A stretch of DNA of 42,529 bases from positions 1-42,529 of the forward strand of contig JANXSX010000139.1 of the NCBI GenBank assembly GCA_025356475.1. The letters are read 5' to 3'. The position numbers and the translations under genes are program-made. Shown here in pieces: positions 29,676-42,292 of the stretch. Below the pieces are notes generated by a model, which saw nothing but the letters and a program-made list of their open reading frames with translations, made no database searches and had not been told where the DNA came from. Position 1 is the first letter of the stretch; each line of letters begins with the position of its first letter. This stretch comes from Isosphaeraceae bacterium. GTDB lineage: Bacteria; Planctomycetota; Planctomycetia; Isosphaerales; Isosphaeraceae.

Positions 29676-30452
29676 ATGGCCTCGCCTCCGAGCTACATCA
29701 TTGATATGGATGGGGTGATCTATCATGGTCACCGCCTCATCCCAGGTGCGCTTGAGTTCGTGAACCGGCTCCGCGACGGCGGGCATAAGTTCCTCTTCCT
29801 GACCAACAACAGTCAGTGGACCCCGCGCGACCTGCAACATCGCCTCAACGGCATGGGCATCATCGTCGACGAATCCGCCTTCCACACCGCCGCCCTTGCC
29901 ACAGCCGACTTCCTCCACAGCCAGTCTCCCGGCGGGACCGCCTATGTCATTGGCGGGGCAGGGCTCACCAAGGCCCTTTACGACGTCGGATTCACGCTCA
30001 CCGAGCAGAACCCCGACTATGTCGTCGTGGGCGACACACGCAGCTATGATTACGAGAAGATCGAACGAGCGGTCCGATTCATCTTGGGCGGGGCTCGGTT
30101 CATCGCCACCAATCTCGACCTGACCGGCCCGAGCGAGCTCGGAATCCAGCCCGCCTGCGGTGCCCTCGTCGCCCCCATCGAGCTAAGCACTGGGCGCAAA
30201 CCTTACTTCATCGGCAAGCCGAACCCCCTGATGATGAGAACCGCCCTCCGCAAGCTTGGAGTTCATTCCAGCGAGTCCTTCATGGTGGGTGACCGCATGG
30301 ATACCGATATACTGGGCGGTACGGAAGCCGGCATGCGCACGATCTTGGTTCTCTCGGGGGTCAGTACCCAAGAGACGATCGAGACATTCCCATTCCGCCC
30401 CACATATGTTTATGAAGATGTCGGTCAGATTCCTGTGGCGACGCTGAGTTGA
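29676..30452 (+). CDS. HAD-IIA (NagD-like) phosphatase
   Basis: This 258-residue protein has the HAD motifs. Motif I is DMDGVIYHG with nucleophile Asp 10 and Asp 12. Motif II is LFLTNNSQWTPRDLQ, the Lys is in FIGKPNPLMM, and motif IV is MVGDRMDTDILGGTEAG. The C2 cap between them is NagD type. Such enzymes dephosphorylate nucleotides or sugar phosphates; the substrate cannot be read. I start at ATG 29676 because motif I must be near the N-terminus; the longer frame from 29454 overlaps the DUF427 gene. Its last 26 bases, coding I-P-V-A-T-L-S-stop, belong to a 28-bp direct repeat whose second copy lies at 36286-36313. Confidence 0.92.
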   Translation: MASPPSYIIDMDGVIYHGHRLIPGALEFVNRLRDGGHKFLFLTNNSQWTPRDLQHRLNGMGIIVDESAFHTAALATADFLHSQSPGGTAYVIGGAGLTKALYDVGFTLTEQNPDYVVVGDTRSYDYEKIERAVRFILGGARFIATNLDLTGPSELGIQPACGALVAPIELSTGRKPYFIGKPNPLMMRTALRKLGVHSSESFMVGDRMDTDILGGTEAGMRTILVLSGVSTQETIETFPFRPTYVYEDVGQIPVATLS

Positions 30453-30454
30453 TC
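30427..30454 (+). repeat. 28-bp direct repeat, copy 1 (3' end of HAD gene)
   Basis: The repeat starts AGATTCCTGTGGCGACGCTG and ends AGTTGATC. It is identical over all 28 bases to 36286-36313, same orientation. Copy 1 codes the last residues and stop of the HAD phosphatase. The segment between the copies (about 5.8 kb) holds the kinase, sigma factor and a DUF1559 gene. Confidence 0.92.
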
Positions 30455-30505
30455 ATAATTCGGTAATTTGGTTGGTTGCCGACCCTGTTCGACGACTGGA
30501 AGTGT

Positions 30506-33500
30506 TCACTCTTCGAGCTTCAACAACGTTAGCTCTTCGCGAAGGGCGGCAAGATCCCAGACTCGCGGGGCATACTCACCATCGACGACGGCTAGCAGAT
30601 TCTTGCCGTCAGGGCTGAAGGCCAGTGAACGGATCGAAGATGAGGTGGCAGGAAGACTGAGCCAGGGTCGGACACCGGGTTCGACCGCAGGTGTCTGACC
30701 GGAGGCTGCGTTGGGGAGTTTCCAGAGACGGATGATCTTGTCGTTACCACCACTCGCTAGCCAATCTCCGCGTGGTGAGAGTGAGACTGCGCGAACTGAA
30801 CCGGCATGAGTCCTCGAGAGCGATAAGGGTGTGCCATCGGGCAATGCCTTCAAGTGGATCGTTCCATCGGCTGTACCCATCGCAGCGAGAGAGGCATCCA
30901 CTGTCAGCGCGATTGATGTGATCGATACTCTAGGAAACTTCCAGGTCACTGGCGGGTTCTCGAGTGGTTGGAGTGGAACAGGGCTATCAGCGTCGAACAA
31001 ATAGGCTTGACCGTTATTACCTGTGTACAGAACTTGATTTCCTGCAGTCGCGATCGACCGCAGTCCCGGCGATCCTGACTGTGGTCCCGAGAAATTGTCG
31101 GCCCAGAAATGTTTGGGCTGGATTTCACCTCGATCGTACACAGAGACCGAGTCGTTACCTCCACTAGGGTCAGCCAGAGTCCAAATCCGACCATTCTCTC
31201 CAGCTTCGACGCCGTCAATACTACGACCTTGGCCTTTCAGTTCACGCCATACGCCGGTTGACAATTCGAGTTCACGAACACGATCGCTTTCGTAAGATAC
31301 GAGTAAACGCCGACCGTCCTTTGAGGCCGAAATATGCTGCCGGCCATCCTGATTACTGTCTGGACTGTATGATGGCTCAAGTTGGACTCTGTCAGTCCTT
31401 CTCATTAATCCATGTTCAAGATCGATTGTCGAGATGACAAGGCGAACGGATTCCTCGGTCGGGCCGCCATCAGCGATCGGTTCGCGGCGCAGACGTTCCG
31501 TCGTTGCGACATAGATCGACTTGCCGTCAGCCGACCAGCAGCTCGAAAGAACAGGAGTGAGTCCCGGGGCGATTTGCGTTTTTGCATGGCATCTATCAAA
31601 ACTATATGTCTTGATATCAAGTTTATCAGTAACCACGAGTCCACGGCCTTCGGGTGTGAACTCAACTCGGGAATTATTCTCTCCGTTGAGAAATGGTAGT
31701 GTGGTTAGCAATCGTCCATCAGCGACATCCCATATTTTAATGAGACCATCCTTTCCTTGATCAGGGCCGGTCCAGGTCGCCAGGAACGCTCTGTTCGGAC
31801 TGATCGCTATAGAAAATTCTCCGCGATGCGGCTGTGTGAGAACCTTACGGGTGACTGAGTCGGAACTGATCGCCAGAAGATCGCCTCCCGAGCGAACCCA
31901 GGCGGCCATCCCGTCGAAACCATGAGTCGAGTGCGCTGTCGGAAGTCGATGACGATTCTTGACCGCGAATGTCTCACCATCGAGCCAAAATAGTCCAGCA
32001 GACCCACACTCGAACATGAGACTGTTGCCGTCGCGGTGGCCAAAGAGTTGAGCTAGGTCTCCTGGGTTGCCTCCAAGCATGCCTAGGTCACGGTCAGTGG
32101 CCGAATAAGGGCCGGGCCCGACAAGATCACAAACTAATATATGCTTATCATCGCGAATATATAGAAGGTTCCGACCTCCAGAGCCAAACGCGATGCCGCG
32201 CAGCCCCATCTTCGCGGAGATTGTGTGGATCCTCCTGATCTTAAGGCCGTCTGTCTGCCAGACCACTACGAAACCATCATTAATCTGAGTCGCAAAACGT
32301 TGGCCATCGGGAGACCAGACCACACTGCCCATGCGTGTTTGTCTCTTAAATATATTCAAATCTATACTCAAATTTGAAGGAACTCCATTGAACTCTTCAA
32401 GGGGTCCTGTCTGGCCGTCGACGAGATCAACGAGCCGGATCCCAAAACCCGTGAGTCGCGATGGTCTATATCGACCGACCGCGAAACGGCGACCGTCCGG
32501 GCTCACCTTCGTGGTCACGGAATCCACTCCCAGACCGACATCCACGGAAAATGATCTCAGTGCGATTAAATCGAAACCCGTAATTGCAGCGGCGGCTTCT
32601 TTACGAGCCTCAAAACGATCTAGAAACTTGAAAACCTCATCACCGCTTGCCGAAACCTCTCGATGATAACCCAGCGAATCCTGACGCCAACCAGGCGACG
32701 AATCAAGTCGGAGACTTCTCGCTTTCTCGAAGCTCGACAGAGACCTTTGGAGGTTTCGCATACGCTGGGTTTCCTTAATTTTTTGAGCGGCGGCGACACC
32801 TTCCATTCGTCTGACCTCACTAACCCAGAGCCCCCAACTCAATGCCGAGATGAAGAGGATAATCCCTACGGCGAGGCCCGCTGAAGCCGTAGGATGACGA
32901 CGGACGAGACGAATGAGTCGTTCGCGATAGTTCTCATGACGGGCCGAGACTGCCTCGTCGGCAAGCCACAATTCAAGGTCGCGTGCCAGCTCGCCGGCTG
33001 TTGCGTATCGATCTTGGGGGAGAGTCGCCATCGCTTTGAGGCAGATCGCGTCAAGGGCTCGGGGGATCGAGTGATTCGCTACTCGAGGCGCAACAAACTC
33101 GTTCTTGAGTAGAGCAGCCATCACTTCGCCACGCGAACCGGTTCGAGGTAGCCTACCAACCAGCAATTCATAAAGGGTTGAACCTAAGCAATAGATGTCG
33201 GACGCCGGTCCGACGGTCCCATACTTTCGATCAGCCTGCTCGGGACTGGCATAGGCTGGCGTCCCTTGAAACGTATCTCCGTCGGTCTCCGCCCCCTTAC
33301 CCTTGACAGGACCTGAGCCTGGATCCGAATCCTCCCCGTTATCCAAGGCTTTTGCCAAACCCCAATCAATGACCAAAGTCTCGCCATATTCGCCAAGCAT
33401 GATGTTATCAGGCTTAAGATCGCGGTGAACAATCATTTGCTCATGCGTATAAGCCATTGCTTTACAGACTGCGCAGAAGCGGCCAATCAGGTCACGAAAC

Positions 33501-34186
33501 TTAGGGTCATTTTGTGATTTTGAGAGGGACTTCGTGGTTTCGTGATAATCGCGAAGTGCTTCACGAAGTGTTCGTCCCGCCACGAACTTCATTGCGTAGA
33601 AAGGCTCACCCAAGTGATCACTACCGAGCCCGTAAATCGGTACAATTGATGGATGCTGGAGTTGCCCTGGGATCTTGGCCTCGCGGAGAAACTGCTCACG
33701 AAAATCAGGGTCTGAGACATACCTATTTTGGATCTCCTTGTAAGCGACCTCGCGATCGAGTTCTGTGTCGAGCGCGATCGAGACCTGCCCGAGGCCTCCC
33801 TTTTTATGAAACCTCAGTTTCTTGTAGCGTGAATAACTCGTGCCACTGTCGGTAGCCCCACCAGCCGACCTACCGGGACCTGCCGTGGTATCCTCTGGGT
33901 CGCCAAAGGGATCGGTCGTCGCATCAGCTCCGCCGGGGCCGGAGGCCACCACCGTCGAAATAATCGAGGGGCGACTGATCTCGCCATCGAACGAGACGGT
34001 TCCACCGGAGTCGTCGCAAAGCTCGCGTTCGAATTCGCTCAGCTCTTTGAGCACGTAGGCACGCACCTCACCTTCGTAACGATTGGCGAAGCTTTCGATT
34101 GACGGCTGGTTGCCCGCGTTCCACTCTCGATTAAACGCTTCAATCGCGTCGATCGCAGCGCGATGTTTGGTAACTGATGCTGCCAT
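30506..34186 (-). CDS. serine/threonine protein kinase with C-terminal WD40-like repeats
   Basis: This 1226-residue protein has an N-terminal Hanks-type kinase domain (about 120-400). It has a Gly-rich loop K-G-G-L-G-Q-V-S, the ATP Lys 150 in VAYKEI, the catalytic H-R-D-L-K-P-D-N with Asp 256, and I-D-W-G (Asp 274) in place of DFG, common in planctomycete kinases. A-Y-A-S-P-E-Q serves as the APE motif. One membrane helix lies near 430-450 (GLAVGIILFISALSWGLWV). The rest is a WD40/beta-propeller sensor, with blocks such as VWSPDGQRFATQINDGFVVV and SLSPRGDWLASGGNDKIIRL. It probably signals across the membrane. The start at 34186 has GAGGAT eight bases upstream; an ATG at 34222 is possible. It lies 26 bp behind the sigma factor gene and probably shares its transcript. 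Confidence 0.93.
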   Translation of the reverse strand: MAASVTKHRAAIDAIEAFNREWNAGNQPSIESFANRYEGEVRAYVLKELSEFERELCDDSGGTVSFDGEISRPSIISTVVASGPGGADATTDPFGDPEDTTAGPGRSAGGATDSGTSYSRYKKLRFHKKGGLGQVSIALDTELDREVAYKEIQNRYVSDPDFREQFLREAKIPGQLQHPSIVPIYGLGSDHLGEPFYAMKFVAGRTLREALRDYHETTKSLSKSQNDPKFRDLIGRFCAVCKAMAYTHEQMIVHRDLKPDNIMLGEYGETLVIDWGLAKALDNGEDSDPGSGPVKGKGAETDGDTFQGTPAYASPEQADRKYGTVGPASDIYCLGSTLYELLVGRLPRTGSRGEVMAALLKNEFVAPRVANHSIPRALDAICLKAMATLPQDRYATAGELARDLELWLADEAVSARHENYRERLIRLVRRHPTASAGLAVGIILFISALSWGLWVSEVRRMEGVAAAQKIKETQRMRNLQRSLSSFEKARSLRLDSSPGWRQDSLGYHREVSASGDEVFKFLDRFEARKEAAAAITGFDLIALRSFSVDVGLGVDSVTTKVSPDGRRFAVGRYRPSRLTGFGIRLVDLVDGQTGPLEEFNGVPSNLSIDLNIFKRQTRMGSVVWSPDGQRFATQINDGFVVVWQTDGLKIRRIHTISAKMGLRGIAFGSGGRNLLYIRDDKHILVCDLVGPGPYSATDRDLGMLGGNPGDLAQLFGHRDGNSLMFECGSAGLFWLDGETFAVKNRHRLPTAHSTHGFDGMAAWVRSGGDLLAISSDSVTRKVLTQPHRGEFSIAISPNRAFLATWTGPDQGKDGLIKIWDVADGRLLTTLPFLNGENNSRVEFTPEGRGLVVTDKLDIKTYSFDRCHAKTQIAPGLTPVLSSCWSADGKSIYVATTERLRREPIADGGPTEESVRLVISTIDLEHGLMRRTDRVQLEPSYSPDSNQDGRQHISASKDGRRLLVSYESDRVRELELSTGVWRELKGQGRSIDGVEAGENGRIWTLADPSGGNDSVSVYDRGEIQPKHFWADNFSGPQSGSPGLRSIATAGNQVLYTGNNGQAYLFDADSPVPLQPLENPPVTWKFPRVSITSIALTVDASLAAMGTADGTIHLKALPDGTPLSLSRTHAGSVRAVSLSPRGDWLASGGNDKIIRLWKLPNAASGQTPAVEPGVRPWLSLPATSSSIRSLAFSPDGKNLLAVVDGEYAPRVWDLAALREELTLLKLEE

Positions 34187-34212
34187 TGATTTATCCTCAG
34201 GTTGGGGGAAAC

Positions 34213-34809
34213 TCATAGACATGCGACCTCGCGTTGCCAGATGATTCGAATCCGGGAAAGGTAATTCGCGACACTGCGACGGACGAGTTTCAACTCATCG
34301 GCAATTTCTTGCTGGGTGTACCCTTCGAGACTGCGTATCACCACAATCCGATGTTTGTCGTCCGGCAACCGAGTGAGCAAGAGACCGATCAATTCCACGC
34401 CCTCCACCTGGAACTCCGCTTCTAACGCCAGACCAGGCAACCCATCGATTCCGCCGAGTGAGTCGAGGACCGCCTCACTCTTGACTGCGCCACCGCCACG
34501 CGACTTGGTCCGATTCCGTTGATACTGATCACACGCCTTACGGATGGTGATCGCGACAAGCAACCTCGCAAGATCCTTACCATCTTTGAGGTCACGAAAC
34601 CGACCCTCCTTAGCACCGTGCCAGTAGCTCTTGAATGCGCTCAGCGCGACGTCGTCGGCTCCCTCTGCGACCCCGTCCGCACCATATTTTCGGGCGATCG
34701 TTTCAAGCCGGCTCGAATAGAGATCCCAGAGCCGAGCGACAGCCTCTTCATCACCCTGTTCCACGAGACGAATCCAGAGTTCAATACCTGGCTCGTCGGT
34801 CGGCCGCAT
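34213..34809 (-). CDS. ECF RNA polymerase sigma factor (kinase-linked group)
   Basis: This 198-residue protein has sigma region 2 around RLWDLYSSRLETIARKYG and ADDVALSAFKSYW. Region 4 is LPDDKHRIVVIRSLEGYTQQ, then EIADELKLVRRSVANYLSRI. That makes it an ECF-type (group IV) sigma factor. The start ATG 34809 has a near-perfect AGGAGG four bases upstream, which rules out the longer frame to 34881. Directly downstream is a transmembrane kinase. Family knowledge: planctomycetes carry ECF groups encoded beside such kinases, and phosphorylation rather than an anti-sigma factor is thought to control some of them. No anti-sigma gene is visible. Confidence 0.93.
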   Translation of the reverse strand: MRPTDEPGIELWIRLVEQGDEEAVARLWDLYSSRLETIARKYGADGVAEGADDVALSAFKSYWHGAKEGRFRDLKDGKDLARLLVAITIRKACDQYQRNRTKSRGGGAVKSEAVLDSLGGIDGLPGLALEAEFQVEGVELIGLLLTRLPDDKHRIVVIRSLEGYTQQEIADELKLVRRSVANYLSRIRIIWQREVACL

Positions 34810-35098
34810 CGTTCCTCCTATCGATTTTCGATCATTGGGCACTAACCGCCCCAAACCCGCAGAATCGCGGGTAGTATGCATGATGACAGTTCATGTTTCA
34901 AGGATCGATCGTTCATACGACTCGAAATCTAAAAGAAAATATTCGCTCAACTTGCACATGGTCTGTCGAATCGCGGATTACCTCAATAGAGGGATCGCGG
35001 TCCGCGCCGCTCGACCTTTGATTTTGAGCGTGAACGGCACAATCGGCGTTAGATTGTGGTCGAAAGGATCATCTCGGCTTACACATTAAGAGATCTAC

Positions 35099-36181
35099 AT
35101 GTCAAGCTTGACTGCCCTGAAGCCGTCCGGTCGTCGTGGCTTTACACTAATCGAATTGTTGGTCGTGATTTCGATCATCGCTGTGTTAATAGCGCTGCTC
35201 TTACCGGCCGTGCAAGCGGCCCGAGAGGCTGCTCGACGGATCTAATGCGTGAATCACCTCAAACAACTCGGCCTCGCAACCGCGAACTACGAATCTGCGC
35301 ACGGTGTCTTACCGCCCGGGAATCTACCCCAGCGTGATCAGGCCAAGCCAAACGAATTTGGCCGAGGGGCCGGAGTGTTCTGTCTGTTGTTGCCTCAGAT
35401 GGAACAGATGACGATTGCCAACGCCTATAACTACAGCCTTTCGGCTCTTTCGGCCTCCAACGTCACTGTTGCCGGAATTGGACTCGCTGTGCTCCAGTGT
35501 CCGAGCGATCCGTCTGGTACGGCCCCCTCCGACCTCAGTGGTCTCTATCCTTACCGACCTGACGGCCTACAACAGCAGCATGCAAGCTACTCGGGAAATC
35601 GGGGCCAATTTTCGGCACCAGTCGTTGGGAATGGCTTAAAATTCACAGAAACAATGTGCATTACCAAGTGGCGATCGGCGATGACCGGTGTCATTTACGA
35701 CGGGAGTCGAACTCGGCTTGCCGAAATCACCGATGGCGCAAGTAACACCTTGCTCTTCGGCGAGCGAACCTGGGGTATTCTCGATCCTGGCACAAGAAGT
35801 GAATACGCCAAATGGCAGGTAGGAGACACTTTCGACACGACCTTCGACACATTTTATCTGATCAATGGATACAAGAAATATCCTTTCGGTAGCATTTCGG
35901 CCGACTCCCGTCTCGGAGGCGGGTGGTGGGTCCCGTTAACTTCGGCCTCAAGTTACCACAGTGGAGGGGCGAACTTTGCCATGGTCGACGGGTCGGTCCG
36001 GTTTCTCAAAGAGGGAATCGACACCTGGACGAATGACATCACGAGGGATGGCGGCTATCCGGCGGGCGTTACTATCCTAAATCCGTGCTTCGAGCCTTAT
36101 CTCGACACTTCTCAACCGAAGGTCTACCAGGCACTCTCCAGCCGTCGCGGCGGTGAGATCATCAGCGCTGATAGTTTCTAA
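35099..36181 (+). pseudogene. DUF1559 protein gene with in-frame TAA at codon 49
   Basis: ATG 35099 opens [13 protein letters not shown], then [20 protein letters not shown] and [17 protein letters not shown] stop follows at 35243-35245, then C-V-N-H-L-K-Q-L-G-L in the same frame to 36181. Other DUF1559 proteins, including the one at 315-1244, have Gln at this point, so CAA to TAA would explain it. The downstream part is otherwise intact, with GWWVP, FAMVDGSVRFLKEG and GGEIISADSF. Either the gene is inactive, or a GTG near 35249 makes a protein without its pilin signal. It lies inside the segment bracketed by the 28-bp repeat. Confidence 0.8.
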
Positions 36182-36285
36182 GAGTCGGAGAATTCCGACG
36201 GATGTCGCTCGCTCGATTCTACTGTCGAGAACAAAAAAGTCGTCGCTCAATAAACGACTACTGATAACTTTCTCTATTTCTCCGT

Positions 36286-36313
36286 AGATTCCTGTGGCGA
36301 CGCTGAGTTGATC
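36286..36313 (+). repeat. 28-bp direct repeat, copy 2
   Basis: Identical to the 3' end of the HAD phosphatase gene at 30427-30454. Here it is intergenic, 104 bp after the DUF1559 pseudogene. It lies 26 bp before a 30-bp palindrome. Confidence 0.92.
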
Positions 36314-36339
36314 TGTCAGAAATAACGCAGTGTGACCAC

Positions 36340-36369
36340 CACACATCTAATATGCATATTAGATGTGTG
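36340..36369. promoter_or_regulatory. 30-bp perfect palindrome
   Basis: The left arm CACACATCTAATATG (36340-36354) is followed directly by its exact complement CATATTAGATGTGTG (36355-36369), with no spacer. The core is AT-rich and unlike its GC-rich surroundings. It lies 25 bp past the 3' end of the DyP gene (which reads toward it), so it may be a bidirectional terminator. An operator or recombination site is also possible. Confidence 0.6.
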
Positions 36370-36394
36370 ATGATGCAAATATGATTTTGTCGGC

Positions 36395-38098
36395 TCACGC
36401 CTTCTTCGCTGGGGGTGGGTCCAACGGGTCCGCAAACTGGCATGGGTCAGCGCCAGGGAAGTCGATATCGTTGTCGGGCTCGGCGTCGGGTTTGGGTTTG
36501 GGTTTGGGTTTGGATGGCTCGTTGACTCCGCCGCCGGATAGGTTGAAAATCGCGGCAATGCTGGGCTGGAAGAAGTAGTCGCCGCCGGTCGTTGTGACGA
36601 AGTGCTGCATCATGAATTGATGGGCAGCCTTACCCGAGACGGGCATCGTGAACGGAGCAGCCGGGGTATCTTGGGCCATGATCGGGTCCTGCCCATCGTC
36701 GAGCACCTTGCCCTTCTCGTCTTTCGCGAGAACTTTCAGGTTGGGGAAGCTCGGATCGTTGACCCACTTGCTCTGGACGAACTCGAACTGGCGAGCGATG
36801 CTCGACTGATAGGCGACGAACAAGAGACCACGATCAATGTTGTCGTCCTCAATCGTGTCGGCGGGTGGGCGGAAGGAGACGCCGTAGGGGATCCCTCGCC
36901 GGAGCATCCGGTGCGTCTGTGTGGTGCTCTCGCTGTTCTGGAAATCCTTGCTTTTATCACCATCACGTGTCGGCTCATCACGTGGGTAGGCTTTGCGGAT
37001 GTGAGCGGCTCGGGGGACGATCTCGCCATCTGGATCGTCGCCGAATTCGAAATTATTGCCCTCTTTCGCTCCCAGGAGTTCTGGGTGGGCGATCGACGGG
37101 TCAATCGTCGTTGTGTCGACATTGGGAAGAGTCTTGGTCCTCTCCAGAGGGGCTCCGCTGGCGTACCGACCGACGAGCTTGGCTCCCATCAGATCGACGC
37201 TCAAGTTTAGCTTGGTGGCGAGATCCGCCACGAACTTCTTGAAGCCCGGCACATTCTGGCGAAGTCGACGGAAGACCATGTACGAGCCGTTCGTTCCCCA
37301 GCTCGGGGCGGTTTCGTCGCCGCCGCCATGTTTGGGGCTAATCGGCCCTTCATCGGGGTTGGGCTCCATCGGCTTCTTGCCAACGCAGTCGGTCTTGGCG
37401 AACGGGAGCTGCGTGGGGTAACCGAGCAGGAACTCGCCGGGTTGGAGGCGATCCTGCCCGGGATTGCCCTGGAGGGCGTTGCCCCCTTCGATGTGGGCAT
37501 CAAAATGGCGGACACCCGGCTGCGAGACACCGTCCCTGAACCCAAAGTGTTCATGGCCAGGCTGATCGACCCGAACAGTACCGACCTGAGTGAAGACCAG
37601 ATCGAAACCCTCGACCAGAGTCGTGAGATAGCGGGTCACGGCCTTCTCAACATCCTGAGGAGTATCGGCGGCGACGATCACGACGACGTGGATTCTCGAC
37701 TGATCACCGAGCGGCGTCAGCCAGTTGGTGGGATCGCTGGCACCGACATCACCGATAATCGCCGCGCGAGCCTTCATCCCCTGCTGATACGCTTCGGGGA
37801 ACTGGTCGATCTCGTCGAAGCCAAGCGCTTGAAGCCCCCCAAACGTGAACGCAATGTTCATCCACGTCGCCTTGAGTTCACCATGCTCTCCCCCCCGGCG
37901 CGACATCACCGCCTTGAAAAGCTGACCGAAGTCTCGGACCTCGCGAGCGGTTGCAATTTCGTTGACAATTGCCAGAAGGGCTAGTTTAGCCTTCTCGGCA
38001 CCAACGACCCGAAGAAACAGCATTGTCTGATGATCTTTGTTGAATCCGCCCAGGATATTTCCCTGGATCACGTCCAAGTTCTCTTCGAGTCCAGCCAT
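36395..38098 (-). CDS. DyP-type heme peroxidase
   Basis: This 567-residue protein begins N-L-D-V-I-Q-G-N-I-L-G-G-F-N-K, typical of DyP peroxidases related to the fungal and cyanobacterial class. The distal motif G-F-R-D-G-V-S-Q-P-G has Asp 189. The proximal heme His is probably His 366 in AAHIRKAYPRDEP. A later conserved block is GIPYGVSFRPPAD, then GLLFVAYQSSIARQFEFVQ. It reduces peroxide while oxidising dyes or phenols; the natural substrate is unknown. No signal peptide is seen. The start at 38098 (or 38101) follows GAGG. The C-terminal tail holds K-P-K-P-K-P-K-P coded by a tandem hexamer and two Cys/Pro-rich turns. It is transcribed convergently with the upstream block. Confidence 0.93.
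   Translation of the reverse strand: MAGLEENLDVIQGNILGGFNKDHQTMLFLRVVGAEKAKLALLAIVNEIATAREVRDFGQLFKAVMSRRGGEHGELKATWMNIAFTFGGLQALGFDEIDQFPEAYQQGMKARAAIIGDVGASDPTNWLTPLGDQSRIHVVVIVAADTPQDVEKAVTRYLTTLVEGFDLVFTQVGTVRVDQPGHEHFGFRDGVSQPGVRHFDAHIEGGNALQGNPGQDRLQPGEFLLGYPTQLPFAKTDCVGKKPMEPNPDEGPISPKHGGGDETAPSWGTNGSYMVFRRLRQNVPGFKKFVADLATKLNLSVDLMGAKLVGRYASGAPLERTKTLPNVDTTTIDPSIAHPELLGAKEGNNFEFGDDPDGEIVPRAAHIRKAYPRDEPTRDGDKSKDFQNSESTTQTHRMLRRGIPYGVSFRPPADTIEDDNIDRGLLFVAYQSSIARQFEFVQSKWVNDPSFPNLKVLAKDEKGKVLDDGQDPIMAQDTPAAPFTMPVSGKAAHQFMMQHFVTTTGGDYFFQPSIAAIFNLSGGGVNEPSKPKPKPKPDAEPDNDIDFPGADPCQFADPLDPPPAKKA
36488..36511. repeat. four tandem GGGTTT hexamers
   Basis: Four perfect copies of GGGTTT on the plus strand code the Lys-Pro repeat in the DyP peroxidase tail. 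The tract is a slippage-prone simple repeat whose copy number may vary. Confidence 0.8.
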
Positions 38099-38291
38099 CA
38101 TAAACCTCGCATTTTCCAAAAGGGTCCAAAACGTCGTCGCCTCGATCCTAATCAAACCGGATAGCGACGATGGACTTTAATGCCATGATGGTCGAAGCTT
38201 GTCAAAGAAAATCGGATGCGAATTTTCCGGATTGACCCGTCTTCGATCATGGTCGATCCGGCATAATGGGTTCGGAACCAAGGAGAGCCGC

Positions 38292-38537
38292 ATGATCCGC
38301 ATCGTATTGGCCGCCGAACCTGAGGGTCTGTGGCGAACCTATCGCCAATCCCAGTGGATTGGCGTCGTCCGAGCCAATCCCGGAGCCGCAGCCTGGTCCA
38401 AAATCCATCTAGATATCGAAGAACCTCAATATCAAGATGCCCTGGCGAGCTGGCAACGCGATTCGCTGGGCCAGAGTCGCGAAATCGCACTCAAGAGTCT
38501 AGTCGAGCGGAGGGCGGTCGAGGTGAGGCTGAAGTAG
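38292..38537 (+). CDS. hypothetical small protein
   Basis: I do not recognise this 81-residue protein. It reads MIRIVLAAEPEGLWRTYRQS, has W-S-K-I-H-L-D-I-E-E in the middle and a basic, Arg-rich end, VERRAVEVRLK. No membrane segment or metal motif is seen. The start is supported by AGGAGAG at 38281-38287, four bases upstream; the longer frame to 38199 has no such site. It lies 73 bp before the KAP NTPase gene on the same strand and might be part of that module, though nothing in the protein proves it. Confidence 0.65.
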   Translation: MIRIVLAAEPEGLWRTYRQSQWIGVVRANPGAAAWSKIHLDIEEPQYQDALASWQRDSLGQSREIALKSLVERRAVEVRLK

Positions 38538-38610
38538 GACATCATGGCGAACCGGAACTTTATACGATAGCATCAATCGTTCGAGAGGTTTCCAGCGACC
38601 CGACCAGGCG

Positions 38611-40023
38611 ATGCCAATGACCGAAACACATAATGACGAGCCAGTCCGTCGAGACCAGCTCGGTCGAGAGTCGCTGATATCTGAAGTGTCAGAATGGATA
38701 GCCAACTGTCCCCCACCGATGACCTTCGGCGTCTACGGCGATTGGGGATCGGGTAAGACGACGTTTCTGCATCACCTTCACTACCATCTCGCAGGAGAGA
38801 GCGCGCTCTGCAAGAAGGGGGACCCGACTCCTGAAGGGGTCCCGACATCCCTTGCCTCGTCGGATGGTCTGCAAGTCATCTGGTTCGAGGCATGGCGACA
38901 CCAACGCGAGGCGATTCCCATCGTCGCGCTGCTTCGGGAAATGCGCTCACAACTCGCGTTTAGGCACAGAGCCGGGAATGAAGCAAAGAAGTTGCTGAAT
39001 GTGGCTGCACAGGGCGCACTCCGGGTGCTTGACGACCTCATCAAGGTGATCGGGTTTCAAGCCGGGGCAGCCGATAAGCTTCAAGCACTGGGCGAGCGCT
39101 ACGAAACGGATCACTTCTCGACTCCATTACCTTCGTCCGAAATTCGCAGATATCTTGAAGAAGTGATTGAACAGCTTCTCCCTGTCAGCAGTCCCAATTT
39201 GCCATCACCTCGGGTGATTGTGATTATCGACGACCTCGATCGGTGCGAATCGCAGGTTGCCCTTCAACTCTTGGAGGGGATCAAAATTTATATGAATCTC
39301 AAGAATTGTGTGTTTGTCCTTGGGATGAACTTCCAGGTGATCGAACCTGCAATCGCCAAGCAGTTTGAATTGAAAGCGGGGCCTGATGGTCGCAAATTTG
39401 ATCACAGGTGGGAGGCTCGGGAGTACCTGGGCAAGATCTGTCAGACGGCATGGCTACTGCCTCCTTTCCCGGTCGCAGCCTACTTGAAGAAGTATTTACC
39501 GATTGACCACGCCCTAACCCCATTCATCATTAAGAGGGTCGAGGAAACGCCTTGCCTACCTGTCAATCCGCGTAAAATCAAAGCTCTCGCCAATGTTCTC
39601 AAGCGACGACTCCGACAGATGGGGACATTGCCAGCAGAGAACGTCTCCCAGCGCGCGGCGGATCTCACTATATTATTTGCAAGCCTGTATACCTATCATC
39701 CCGACTTGTACCAGATGATCGACGCTCAGCCGAGGTTTTACACTGAAATTCAAAAATATCTTGATAACGGAGTCGCTCCGTTTGATCTTGACGTCTTCCG
39801 TGGAATCATCGCCCCACGTGCACCCGAGTCAAAGATAGAGTCAAGAACCCAGTCGCCCGGGGTTTCCGCGCCAAAGTTGATCGACACTTTTCGTGAGCAT
39901 GAACGTGGTAACGTATTCTTGATTCAATACTTGATGGAAGTGGTCAAACCCGTAACCACAACCGAGATTCGCAGCCATCTTCTCTATCTCCACCAAAGCC
40001 CTTACATAGTTAACGATGTCTAG
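38611..40023 (+). CDS. KAP family P-loop NTPase
   Basis: This 470-residue protein has Walker A G-D-W-G-S-G-K-T-T-F (43-52), then W-F-E-A-W-R-H-Q, a signature found soon after in KAP NTPases. Walker B is V-I-V-I-I-D-D-L-D-R (Asp 207, Asp 208). NPRKIKALANVLKRRLR resembles the family's sensor region. KAP proteins include PifA, the F-plasmid protein that excludes phage T7, and are often membrane-linked; no clear inserted membrane pair is seen here. Its stop overlaps the ATG of the NACHT-LRR gene by eight bases, so the two are co-translated and probably act together. Start ATG 38611 or 38617. Confidence 0.88.
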   Translation: MPMTETHNDEPVRRDQLGRESLISEVSEWIANCPPPMTFGVYGDWGSGKTTFLHHLHYHLAGESALCKKGDPTPEGVPTSLASSDGLQVIWFEAWRHQREAIPIVALLREMRSQLAFRHRAGNEAKKLLNVAAQGALRVLDDLIKVIGFQAGAADKLQALGERYETDHFSTPLPSSEIRRYLEEVIEQLLPVSSPNLPSPRVIVIIDDLDRCESQVALQLLEGIKIYMNLKNCVFVLGMNFQVIEPAIAKQFELKAGPDGRKFDHRWEAREYLGKICQTAWLLPPFPVAAYLKKYLPIDHALTPFIIKRVEETPCLPVNPRKIKALANVLKRRLRQMGTLPAENVSQRAADLTILFASLYTYHPDLYQMIDAQPRFYTEIQKYLDNGVAPFDLDVFRGIIAPRAPESKIESRTQSPGVSAPKLIDTFREHERGNVFLIQYLMEVVKPVTTTEIRSHLLYLHQSPYIVNDV

Positions 40024-42292
40024 AACCAACATTGCGACGCCCTCCGACGACCGTTCGGCCTGGATCGATCCGTACGATAACCGGTCGCTGATTCGCTATT
40101 TCGAAGACGTTCCCAAATGGCATGGGTATATCCATTTCTTGAGTCTCCCCCAGTTTCGTGAATATCACGATGTGCCAATCTGGAGGCTGTTTGTCGAGCC
40201 TCACCTCGCGGTCGCTCCGATCCGACCTGCTGCTCAGGAGCAAAGCGGGATCGCCAGAAACGCGATTCTGTCGACCTTGGCTGAGAAGAAACGGCTGGTG
40301 ATTCTCGGAGATCCAGGGTCGGGAAAGTCGACGCTTGTGAATTGGATTGCCTGGCAGCTTTCGCGGCCGACGGGGAGCCCCGCCGTCGCCCAGCTTGGTC
40401 CCCTCATTCCGCTGCCAATGATCGTGCGCGACCTGGCATTGAGCGTTGACGAGACATGGGATTCGCTGGTCGAGAAGTTCTTGGAACGTCCAGTGGCCAA
40501 GGCCCTTGATGCTGAGTTAGTTCGTGGGTTACTCGAAAGTGGCCAGGTCCTGGTCTTGCTGGATGGCCTCGACGAACTGAACGGTATCGACGCTAGAAAA
40601 CGTTTGCGGGACGCGGTTTGGGATGGGATGAAACGCTATCCTAATGCCCGCTGGATCTTGACCTCGCGTGAGGTTGGTTACGAGGCGGTGCCTTTTGACC
40701 GGGCGATCAATGTCTCGAGCCTGACGTCGCGCGCGGTTGGCCACGAGACAGGGCGCTTTGACCGCGAGTTCCGCGACACCGATCTCCAACCTCAAGCGGC
40801 CACGACCTCATGGGCCTCGCTCTTTTATGTCGCTCCGTTCGATGAACGCCAGATCCGCGAGTTCACGCACTCTTGGTTCCTGCTTCGTGAGCCCGATGAA
40901 CAGGCGGCTCAAACCCGTGCGGAAGGAATGCTCCAGGCGATTGCGCGGAACCCAGGAACCGTGAAGCTTGCTGCCGTTCCGAACTTGCTCTCCTTGCTTG
41001 CGATCATCTACCGCACCCAAAATCAGCTTCCTCACGGGCGCACCGAACTGTACGACCTGATCGCCAAAGCCTACCTCGAGGCAATTGACACATTTCGCAA
41101 CCTTGCCCAGCCCGATGAGCACTTCGAAGTCAAGAAAGCGTGGCTGGCTCGGATTGCGTTTCAAATGCAGTCGGACCGGTCCGATAAAAATTCAGGTGAG
41201 GGACGAGGAATCTTGATCGCTGAATCGGACGTTGTGAATTTATTAATTCAATCAATGCACGCCTCCACCCGACCCCAGGCCAGCGAGCAAGAAGCGAAAG
41301 ACTACCTCGATTGGATCGCCCGCCGCAGTGGCCTGTTCATCCCGCGCGGTCCGGGACTATTCGCCTTCAGCCACCTTTCCTTCCAGGAGTACTTCGCCGC
41401 CTTCCATCTCGCCAAACTGATCAAACGCCCTAGCTGGTCAAACAGTCCAGAGCCGTCGGGAGATGCTTCACTCAAGAATCTGCGTTCCTTTGCCCCCCAG
41501 TCTGTCTGGCTTGAGTCGCTGGTCATCTTATTCGAACTGCTGACCAGCCCCGATGAACCGGAATCGGAGTGCTCCATGAACCTCGCCGAACGGCTTTTCG
41601 GCACGAACGGCGTTCCTCTCGATGCGGCTAATCCTCCAACTGCGGTTCTACTCGCCGAGATTTCCGTCAATCCCTACTCCGGACTTTCAAATACCTTCCG
41701 CGAAAACAGTTGGAAACGACTTCTAGATCTATGGATTCAAAATAAGATTACTCCTCCTGAGAATACATGTGCTTTTCTTCGATCACTCTTTGATAGTCGG
41801 GGTGTTTACAGTGGGAAGATCTGGGAAATCTTTCTCGCGAATCCAAGTGTTTACAATCTTCAGTCGCTAAACCTCTCGAAATGCACATCGCTCTCGGACA
41901 TCCAACCGATCCAAAATCTTGTTAATCTTCAGAAGCTAGACCTCTGGGAATGCACATCGCTTTCGGACATCCAAACGATCCAAAATCTTGTTAATCTTCA
42001 GACGCTAGACCTCTCGGAATGCACATCGCTCTCGGACTTCCAACCGATCCAAAAGCTTGTTAATCTCCGGAAGCTCTACTTCGGGGGATCCACATCACTT
42101 TCGGACATCCAACCTCTCCAAAAACTTGTCAATCTTCAGATGCTCGTGCTCTCGGAATGTACCTCGCTCTCGGACATCCAACCTCTCCAAGAACTCGTCA
42201 ACCTTCGGTGGCTACACCTCTCAGGATGCACATCGATCGCTGAGCTGCCCGACTTTTCGATGTTGCCTAACCTTAAGATCTACCCACCATGA
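40016..42292 (+). CDS. NACHT NTPase with C-terminal leucine-rich repeats (NLR-like)
   Basis: This 758-residue protein has a NACHT module: Walker A G-D-P-G-S-G-K-S (98-105), Walker B L-V-L-L-D-G-L-D-E-L (Asp 183, Glu 187), sensor I-L-T-S-R-E-V-G-Y, and the later F-S-H-L-S-F-Q-E-Y-F-A-A-F-H block typical of bacterial and eukaryotic NACHT proteins. From residue 615 to 752 come six 23-residue leucine-rich repeats of pattern L-x-x-L-x-L-S-x-C-T-S-L-S-D-I. No toxic effector domain is visible at the N-terminus, so the effector may be the KAP partner. Family knowledge: bacterial NACHT proteins defend against phage; LRRs in NLRs sense ligands. The start ATG overlaps the KAP stop. The combined role is inference. 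Confidence 0.9.
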   Translation: MSRTNIATPSDDRSAWIDPYDNRSLIRYFEDVPKWHGYIHFLSLPQFREYHDVPIWRLFVEPHLAVAPIRPAAQEQSGIARNAILSTLAEKKRLVILGDPGSGKSTLVNWIAWQLSRPTGSPAVAQLGPLIPLPMIVRDLALSVDETWDSLVEKFLERPVAKALDAELVRGLLESGQVLVLLDGLDELNGIDARKRLRDAVWDGMKRYPNARWILTSREVGYEAVPFDRAINVSSLTSRAVGHETGRFDREFRDTDLQPQAATTSWASLFYVAPFDERQIREFTHSWFLLREPDEQAAQTRAEGMLQAIARNPGTVKLAAVPNLLSLLAIIYRTQNQLPHGRTELYDLIAKAYLEAIDTFRNLAQPDEHFEVKKAWLARIAFQMQSDRSDKNSGEGRGILIAESDVVNLLIQSMHASTRPQASEQEAKDYLDWIARRSGLFIPRGPGLFAFSHLSFQEYFAAFHLAKLIKRPSWSNSPEPSGDASLKNLRSFAPQSVWLESLVILFELLTSPDEPESECSMNLAERLFGTNGVPLDAANPPTAVLLAEISVNPYSGLSNTFRENSWKRLLDLWIQNKITPPENTCAFLRSLFDSRGVYSGKIWEIFLANPSVYNLQSLNLSKCTSLSDIQPIQNLVNLQKLDLWECTSLSDIQTIQNLVNLQTLDLSECTSLSDFQPIQKLVNLRKLYFGGSTSLSDIQPLQKLVNLQMLVLSECTSLSDIQPLQELVNLRWLHLSGCTSIAELPDFSMLPNLKIYPP
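41858..42271 (+). repeat. six tandem 69-bp units coding leucine-rich repeats
   Basis: Units start at 41858, 41927, 41996, 42065, 42134 and 42203, each 69 bp (23 residues). Units 1-3 and 5 share long identical stretches, such as CATCGCTCTCGGACATCCAA, while unit 6 is divergent and closes the array. This points to recent tandem duplication or gene conversion. Confidence 0.9.

Follow-up and report, generated by a model that had tools for sequence, protein, structure and literature searches.

The perfect palindrome at 36340-36369 of the 42,529-nt Isosphaeraceae stretch analyzed here (the whole of which we call the window) is probably a gene-end RNA hairpin common to two convergent transcription units, a reading to which we assign a probability of about 0.72. 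From its sequence and setting, it is best taken for a bidirectional gene-end hairpin that lacks a U-tract, a known kind of element and a putative terminator or 3′-end protector, and readings as an operator, a REP element, an insertion-sequence end, a dif site or an artefact are each less likely. The element has hairpin potential on both strands, it lies between two convergent gene ends, and comparable hairpins cluster at the ends of genes in the portion of the genome that we sampled; from this we infer an effect on the RNA. A striking perfect palindrome can, in other words, be an ordinary gene-end hairpin with a self-complementary loop. The features of the locus are as follows.

29676..30452, plus strand: HAD-IIA hydrolase gene (protein family scan)
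30427..30454, plus strand: first copy of an exact 28-bp direct repeat, the 3′ end of the HAD gene including its stop codon
30455..36285, no strand: segment between the 28-bp copies, a putative insertion
30506-34222, minus strand: WD40/Ser-Thr kinase gene, within the putative insertion
34213-34881, minus strand: ECF sigma factor gene, within the putative insertion
35099-36181, plus strand: DUF1559 gene with an in-frame stop, within the putative insertion
36238..36259, minus strand: weak hairpin with six T after it, which may be a canonical terminator downstream for minus-strand transcription (scan)
36286..36313, plus strand: second copy of the exact 28-bp repeat, with a stop codon at 36309-36311, 28 nt before the palindrome
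36325..36344, minus strand: alternative terminator-like hairpin with tail TATTTCTGAC (terminator pattern scan, chance level)
36335..36374, minus strand: extended hairpin of the DyP transcript, an 18-bp stem including two G-U pairs (predicted fold, −23.4 kcal/mol)
36340..36369, either strand: the palindrome, as RNA a 13-bp stem with a TGCA tetraloop (fold prediction)
36395..38155, minus strand: DyP-type peroxidase gene

The palindrome consists of CACACATCTAATATG joined to its own exact reverse complement with no spacer, just as the sequence-only reading had described it, and with flanks included its arms measure 18 nt at 94%. That reading was also right about its place, between the 28-bp repeat (whose second copy spans 36286-36313) and the 3′ end of the minus-strand DyP gene, which has its stop codon at 36395-36397. 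Its remark that such palindromes are rare by chance holds as well: under a model that takes base composition into account and gives two bases a 0.254 chance of being complementary, zero-spacer palindromes with arms ≥15 are expected 5e-5 times in the window and 0.007 times in 5.9 Mb. After it, the longest zero-spacer arms in the 881,820 bases sampled (the window among them) were 10 bp (2 cases), 9 bp (5) and 8 bp (15). The palindrome is thus a non-random string, but as a hairpin it stands out less, because 12 of 21 sampled perfect-stem hairpins of ≥11 bp, the palindrome included, have stems of ≥13 bp, up to 19 bp.

A genome search for other copies, which had been proposed as a check, returned a single copy in 5,917,986 bases with ≤3 mismatches allowed, and the 20-bp core had no second copy in the same bases. 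The exact 24-bp core had no match in viral_contigs, and neither a plasmid search with 36286-36394 nor an Rfam search of 30400-36600 gave any match up to E 1. The gap region 36182-36480 had a DNA match in its own genome only and none in the 98 other genomes of the 99 searched, so that the search yielded no homologous copy for a covariation comparison. REP elements are likewise extragenic palindromes at gene ends, but the palindrome is single copy; we rejected a REP-type repeat, which requires many copies, on the one copy found in that search.

The palindrome sits in a convergent gap, with the DUF1559 gene (plus strand) to its left, the DyP gene (minus strand) to its right and no gene start adjoining. 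Counted in the direction of the DyP transcript, the DyP stop codon lies 25 nt from the palindrome and 20 nt from the extended hairpin, and the present plus-strand neighbor, DUF1559, ends at 36181, 158 nt away. On the plus strand, A-C mismatches occupy both G-U places of the extended hairpin, and the predicted energy is −17.8 kcal/mol. The 42-nt element folded far better than shuffled sequence (z of −6.2 on the plus and −6.8 on the minus strand, with 0/200 shuffles as good), while in a 75-nt context z was −2.55 on the plus strand (3/200 shuffles as good) and −3.92 on the minus strand (0/200). The two mismatches flanking the palindrome thus pair as G-U solely on the DyP transcript strand, and this strand difference fits use in the DyP transcript, two positions being thin evidence.

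These positions also bear on the possibility, raised in the sequence-only reading, that the palindrome is an assembly artefact created by an inverted join. The assembly is indeed a draft of 232 contigs. However, a repeat search found no inverted match in the flanks beyond the 18-nt arms, which speaks against such a join, and the two G-U-compatible mismatches would be more in keeping with an RNA stem shaped by evolution than with a copying fold-back; we regard an artefact of assembly or library as scarcely likely. We read the absent spacer as incidental to a tetraloop that is self-complementary by coincidence. Of the 15 tetraloop hairpins whose stems reach ≥10 bp, one has a self-complementary loop, namely the palindrome with its TGCA, and about 1 in 16 is expected if loop letters vary freely; the missing spacer therefore needs no special cause.

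Downstream of the stem, the minus-strand tail reads GTGGTCACAC after 13 bp and CACACTGCGTTATTT after 18 bp, the plus-strand tail reads ATGATGCAAATA, and none of them holds a U-tract. With no U-tract directly following on either strand, the palindrome is not a textbook intrinsic terminator: a stable hairpin soon after the stop was found, and a U-tract directly after the stem was not. The earlier suggestion of a bidirectional terminator accordingly survives in part, in that the position and the similar hairpins in the sampled genome fit it and the lack of a U-tract does not. A terminator pattern scan, which performed at chance level (12 sites vs 9.1 expected, sd 3.2), picked up the alternative hairpin at 36344-36325, which shares a palindrome arm and would compete with it; the minimum-energy fold favors the palindrome hairpin. 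The weak hairpin at 36238-36259 has a fold z of −1.17. This U-tailed hairpin and the alternative one count against reading the palindrome as a gene-end hairpin, as does the 158-nt distance to the end of DUF1559.

We propose that RNA polymerase leaving the DyP gene on the minus strand would yield a transcript that folds the 18-bp hairpin from 20 nt past the stop codon. The hairpin would then either aid release of the polymerase or, once factor-dependent termination has taken place, fix and protect the 3′ end of the mRNA, and protection would be the more likely of the two because there is no U-tract. Transcripts from the plus strand would fold the same hairpin core.

Similar hairpins elsewhere in the genome argue for this gene-end reading. 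We sampled 61 genome stretches (60 plus the window; 881,820 bases with N, ~15% of the genome), called 666 genes with a simple purpose-written codon-usage caller, and searched for perfect stems of ≥11 bp with loops of 3-8. The 21 hairpins found were distributed as follows.

Convergent gaps: 7 in 13,550 bp
Co-directional gaps: 8 in 66,493 bp
Divergent gaps: 1 in 29,563 bp
Inside genes: 2 in 738,747 bp
Unassigned edges: 3 in 33,467 bp

In this ~15% of the genome, hairpin density peaks in convergent gaps. The test covered 67 gaps of 20-600 nt from 102 convergent junctions, and 7 of these gaps hold a hairpin of ≥11 bp, against a mean of 0.07 and a maximum of 1 in 30 dinucleotide shuffles; the other 60 have none. 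Two of these seven hairpins come from the window itself. With the window excluded, 5 convergent hairpins remain in 12,935 bp (p = 4e-8 vs genes, p = 0.014 vs divergent gaps), and convergent gaps hold 5 of 14 gap hairpins vs 12.7% of gap bases (p = 0.025). Lowering the threshold to ≥10 bp gave 37 hairpins, i.e., 8 inside genes, 6 at edges and 23 in assigned gaps, and 18 of these 23 start ≤63 nt from a stop codon. The nearest stop codon is 0-63 nt away for all 8 convergent hairpins and 6-48 nt away for 10 of 14 co-directional ones; for the four other co-directional hairpins the distance is 90-233 nt, and no stop codon is near the divergent hairpin. U-tracts are mostly missing: ≥5 T in 8 was seen for 3 tails among 23 hairpin-gene pairs (19 hairpins). 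The genome thus seems to mark a minority of its gene ends, most densely the convergent ones, with long and mostly U-less hairpins. Two further examples in convergent gaps, L091:3337-3378 and L099:1515-1554, have longer perfect stems than the palindrome (19 and 18 bp), tetraloops and no U-tract.

Compared with known systems, the palindrome resembles bidirectional intrinsic terminators in being a symmetric, stable hairpin between convergent genes that is in principle usable from both sides, and it differs from them in its lack of a U-tract on either side and its low-G+C stem (31%, the lowest of the 21 sampled hairpins). Hairpin terminators that lack a U-tract are called ‘I-shaped’. Such terminators have been reported for Mycobacterium tuberculosis, Streptomyces and others (PMC8355165). 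They share with the palindrome, which is described here by its position and predicted fold, a single stable stem-loop within tens of nucleotides of a stop codon and with no U trail. One literature search on U-less terminators and planctomycetes, requiring at least 4 of 5 terms, returned no paper. The palindrome has the features of a U-less gene-end hairpin, i.e., a long stem, a short loop, proximity to a stop codon and enrichment of its kind at gene ends in its own genome.

We also considered 12 loci around HAD orthologues from the same family (226,878 bp, 65.8% G+C), and counted 19 hairpins of ≥10 bp there, of which 10 are in co-directional gaps, 6 inside genes, 2 in divergent gaps and 1 in a convergent gap. 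A stop codon precedes eight of the 10 co-directional hairpins by 10-36 nt, and the hairpin in the convergent gap is 25 nt from a stop codon. The excess of convergent over divergent gaps was not reproduced in this small set (1 in 3,126 bp vs 2 in 7,702 bp, or 3.2 vs 2.6 per 10 kb). Within 160 nt downstream of the HAD orthologues, a stem of ≥11 bp occurred in 2 of 12 (L061 and L063), one of the 12 having just 54 nt searchable. By eye, the DNA after the HAD orthologues at the 12 loci shows no likeness to that of the window.

The distribution of hairpins across gap types also speaks to the suggestion that the palindrome is an operator, i.e., symmetric DNA bound by a dimeric regulator. Many operators combine dyad symmetry with an A+T-rich center, and the palindrome has perfect dyad symmetry and such a center; moreover, 2 of 13 gap hairpins (≥10 bp) at the family loci are divergent. 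However, within the palindrome’s own genome 1 of 21 comparable stems lies in a divergent gap, and the palindrome is itself placed between convergent gene ends rather than at a gene start or promoter position. It is also single copy at ≤3 mismatches, as is its 20-bp core, related sites being expected for a regulon though not required. The operator proposal thus finds little footing, and we consider it quite improbable.

A dif-like or other Xer/tyrosine-recombinase site is the least probable of the readings considered, and a very unlikely one. The TAA-(8 bp)-TTA center of the palindrome with its 11-bp flanks superficially recalls dif and cer. The arms of dif are, however, not perfectly symmetric and those of the palindrome are, and along this contig the GC skew changes sign briefly and then reverts, with no sustained switch. 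A search with a dif-like consensus gave nothing in the window contig and 3 weak places on other contigs, which is chance level given 3 matches to a control pattern.

The neighboring 28-bp duplication is a more interesting feature of the stretch than the palindrome. Its two copies lie 5,859 bp apart, start to start, and are the only two found in the genome search; with ≤7 mismatches, the repeat was found in the window’s own contig only among the loci searched. The repeat, the geometry of the stop codons and, weakly, the lower G+C of the intervening segment (0.53-0.55 vs 0.579 in the sampled genome, with 8-11 kb and 38-42 kb of the window equally low) suggest that a 5.9-kb segment was inserted beside the palindrome and brought a copy of the HAD 3′ end. 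The HAD gene would then have been the original convergent partner of DyP. If HAD once ended at the second copy, the palindrome would have followed the stop codon of HAD by 28 nt and that of DyP by 25 nt, i.e., nearly centered between the two convergent genes, and the present DNA behind the HAD gene forms nothing comparable (in 160 nt the best stem has 6 bp). The gene-end hairpin may thus originally have lain between HAD and DyP, the segment with its HAD 3′-end copy entering later on the left. Such a duplication resembles integration at a gene 3′ end, with no recombinase gene among the proteins scanned. The search for a relative with an empty site for the 5.9-kb segment found none.

Could the palindrome itself be the end of this element, or its target site, so that repeat and palindrome together mark the insertion of the kinase-sigma-DUF1559 segment? 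The exact duplication of the HAD 3′ end and the G+C of the segment, with the caveat given above, are in keeping with a mobile element, and the palindrome lies 26 bp from the second copy. But it lies outside the repeat, is single copy, and there are no inverted copies at both segment ends. Moreover, no transposase or integrase family was detected among the 7 proteins scanned from 29676-42292, and when the stretches at the segment ends (30430-30800 and 36182-36480) were compared with the genome, they recurred only as the 28-bp repeat, the reverse match of the palindrome to itself and 24 matching bp inside the kinase gene. The idea that the palindrome is an inserted-element end therefore loses ground to the 28-bp repeat, which is the sequence that was duplicated, the inserted segment appearing beside the palindrome; we judge it unlikely. 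In a more speculative and very improbable scenario, the palindrome hairpin helped target the kinase/ECF sigma/DUF1559 segment, whose entry duplicated the 28-bp HAD 3′ end and kept the HAD frame, and which would represent a cargo unit without a recombinase of its own that lands at gene-end hairpins.

Within the segment, the DUF1559 gene (35099-36181) encodes a prepilin-type N-terminus and is interrupted at codon 49 by an in-frame TAA (35243-35245), which makes a pseudogene or a restart at GTG 35249 probable. Matches of its closest paralogues (L137 and L138) by blastn cover the DUF1559 gene only.

On the other side of the palindrome, DyP matches were found in 9 of 45 family genomes, its own included, with a best other identity of 42% on one segment, and the DyP protein is 50-51% identical to Calothrix proteins. 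These distant family relatives and the similarity to Calothrix make a horizontal acquisition of the DyP gene possible. A DyP scan of named genomes, limited to close relatives, yielded 5 loci in Calothrix and Acidimicrobiales at 46-51% identity, too distant for an empty-site comparison. Beyond DyP, 38611-42292 encodes a KAP-type NTPase, which resembles QatA weakly and below threshold, and after it a protein that looks leucine-rich-repeat-like from NCBIfam matches, also below threshold; the two are possibly a defense-like pair, and the gene of the latter protein carries a 69-nt tandem repeat at 41786-42243.
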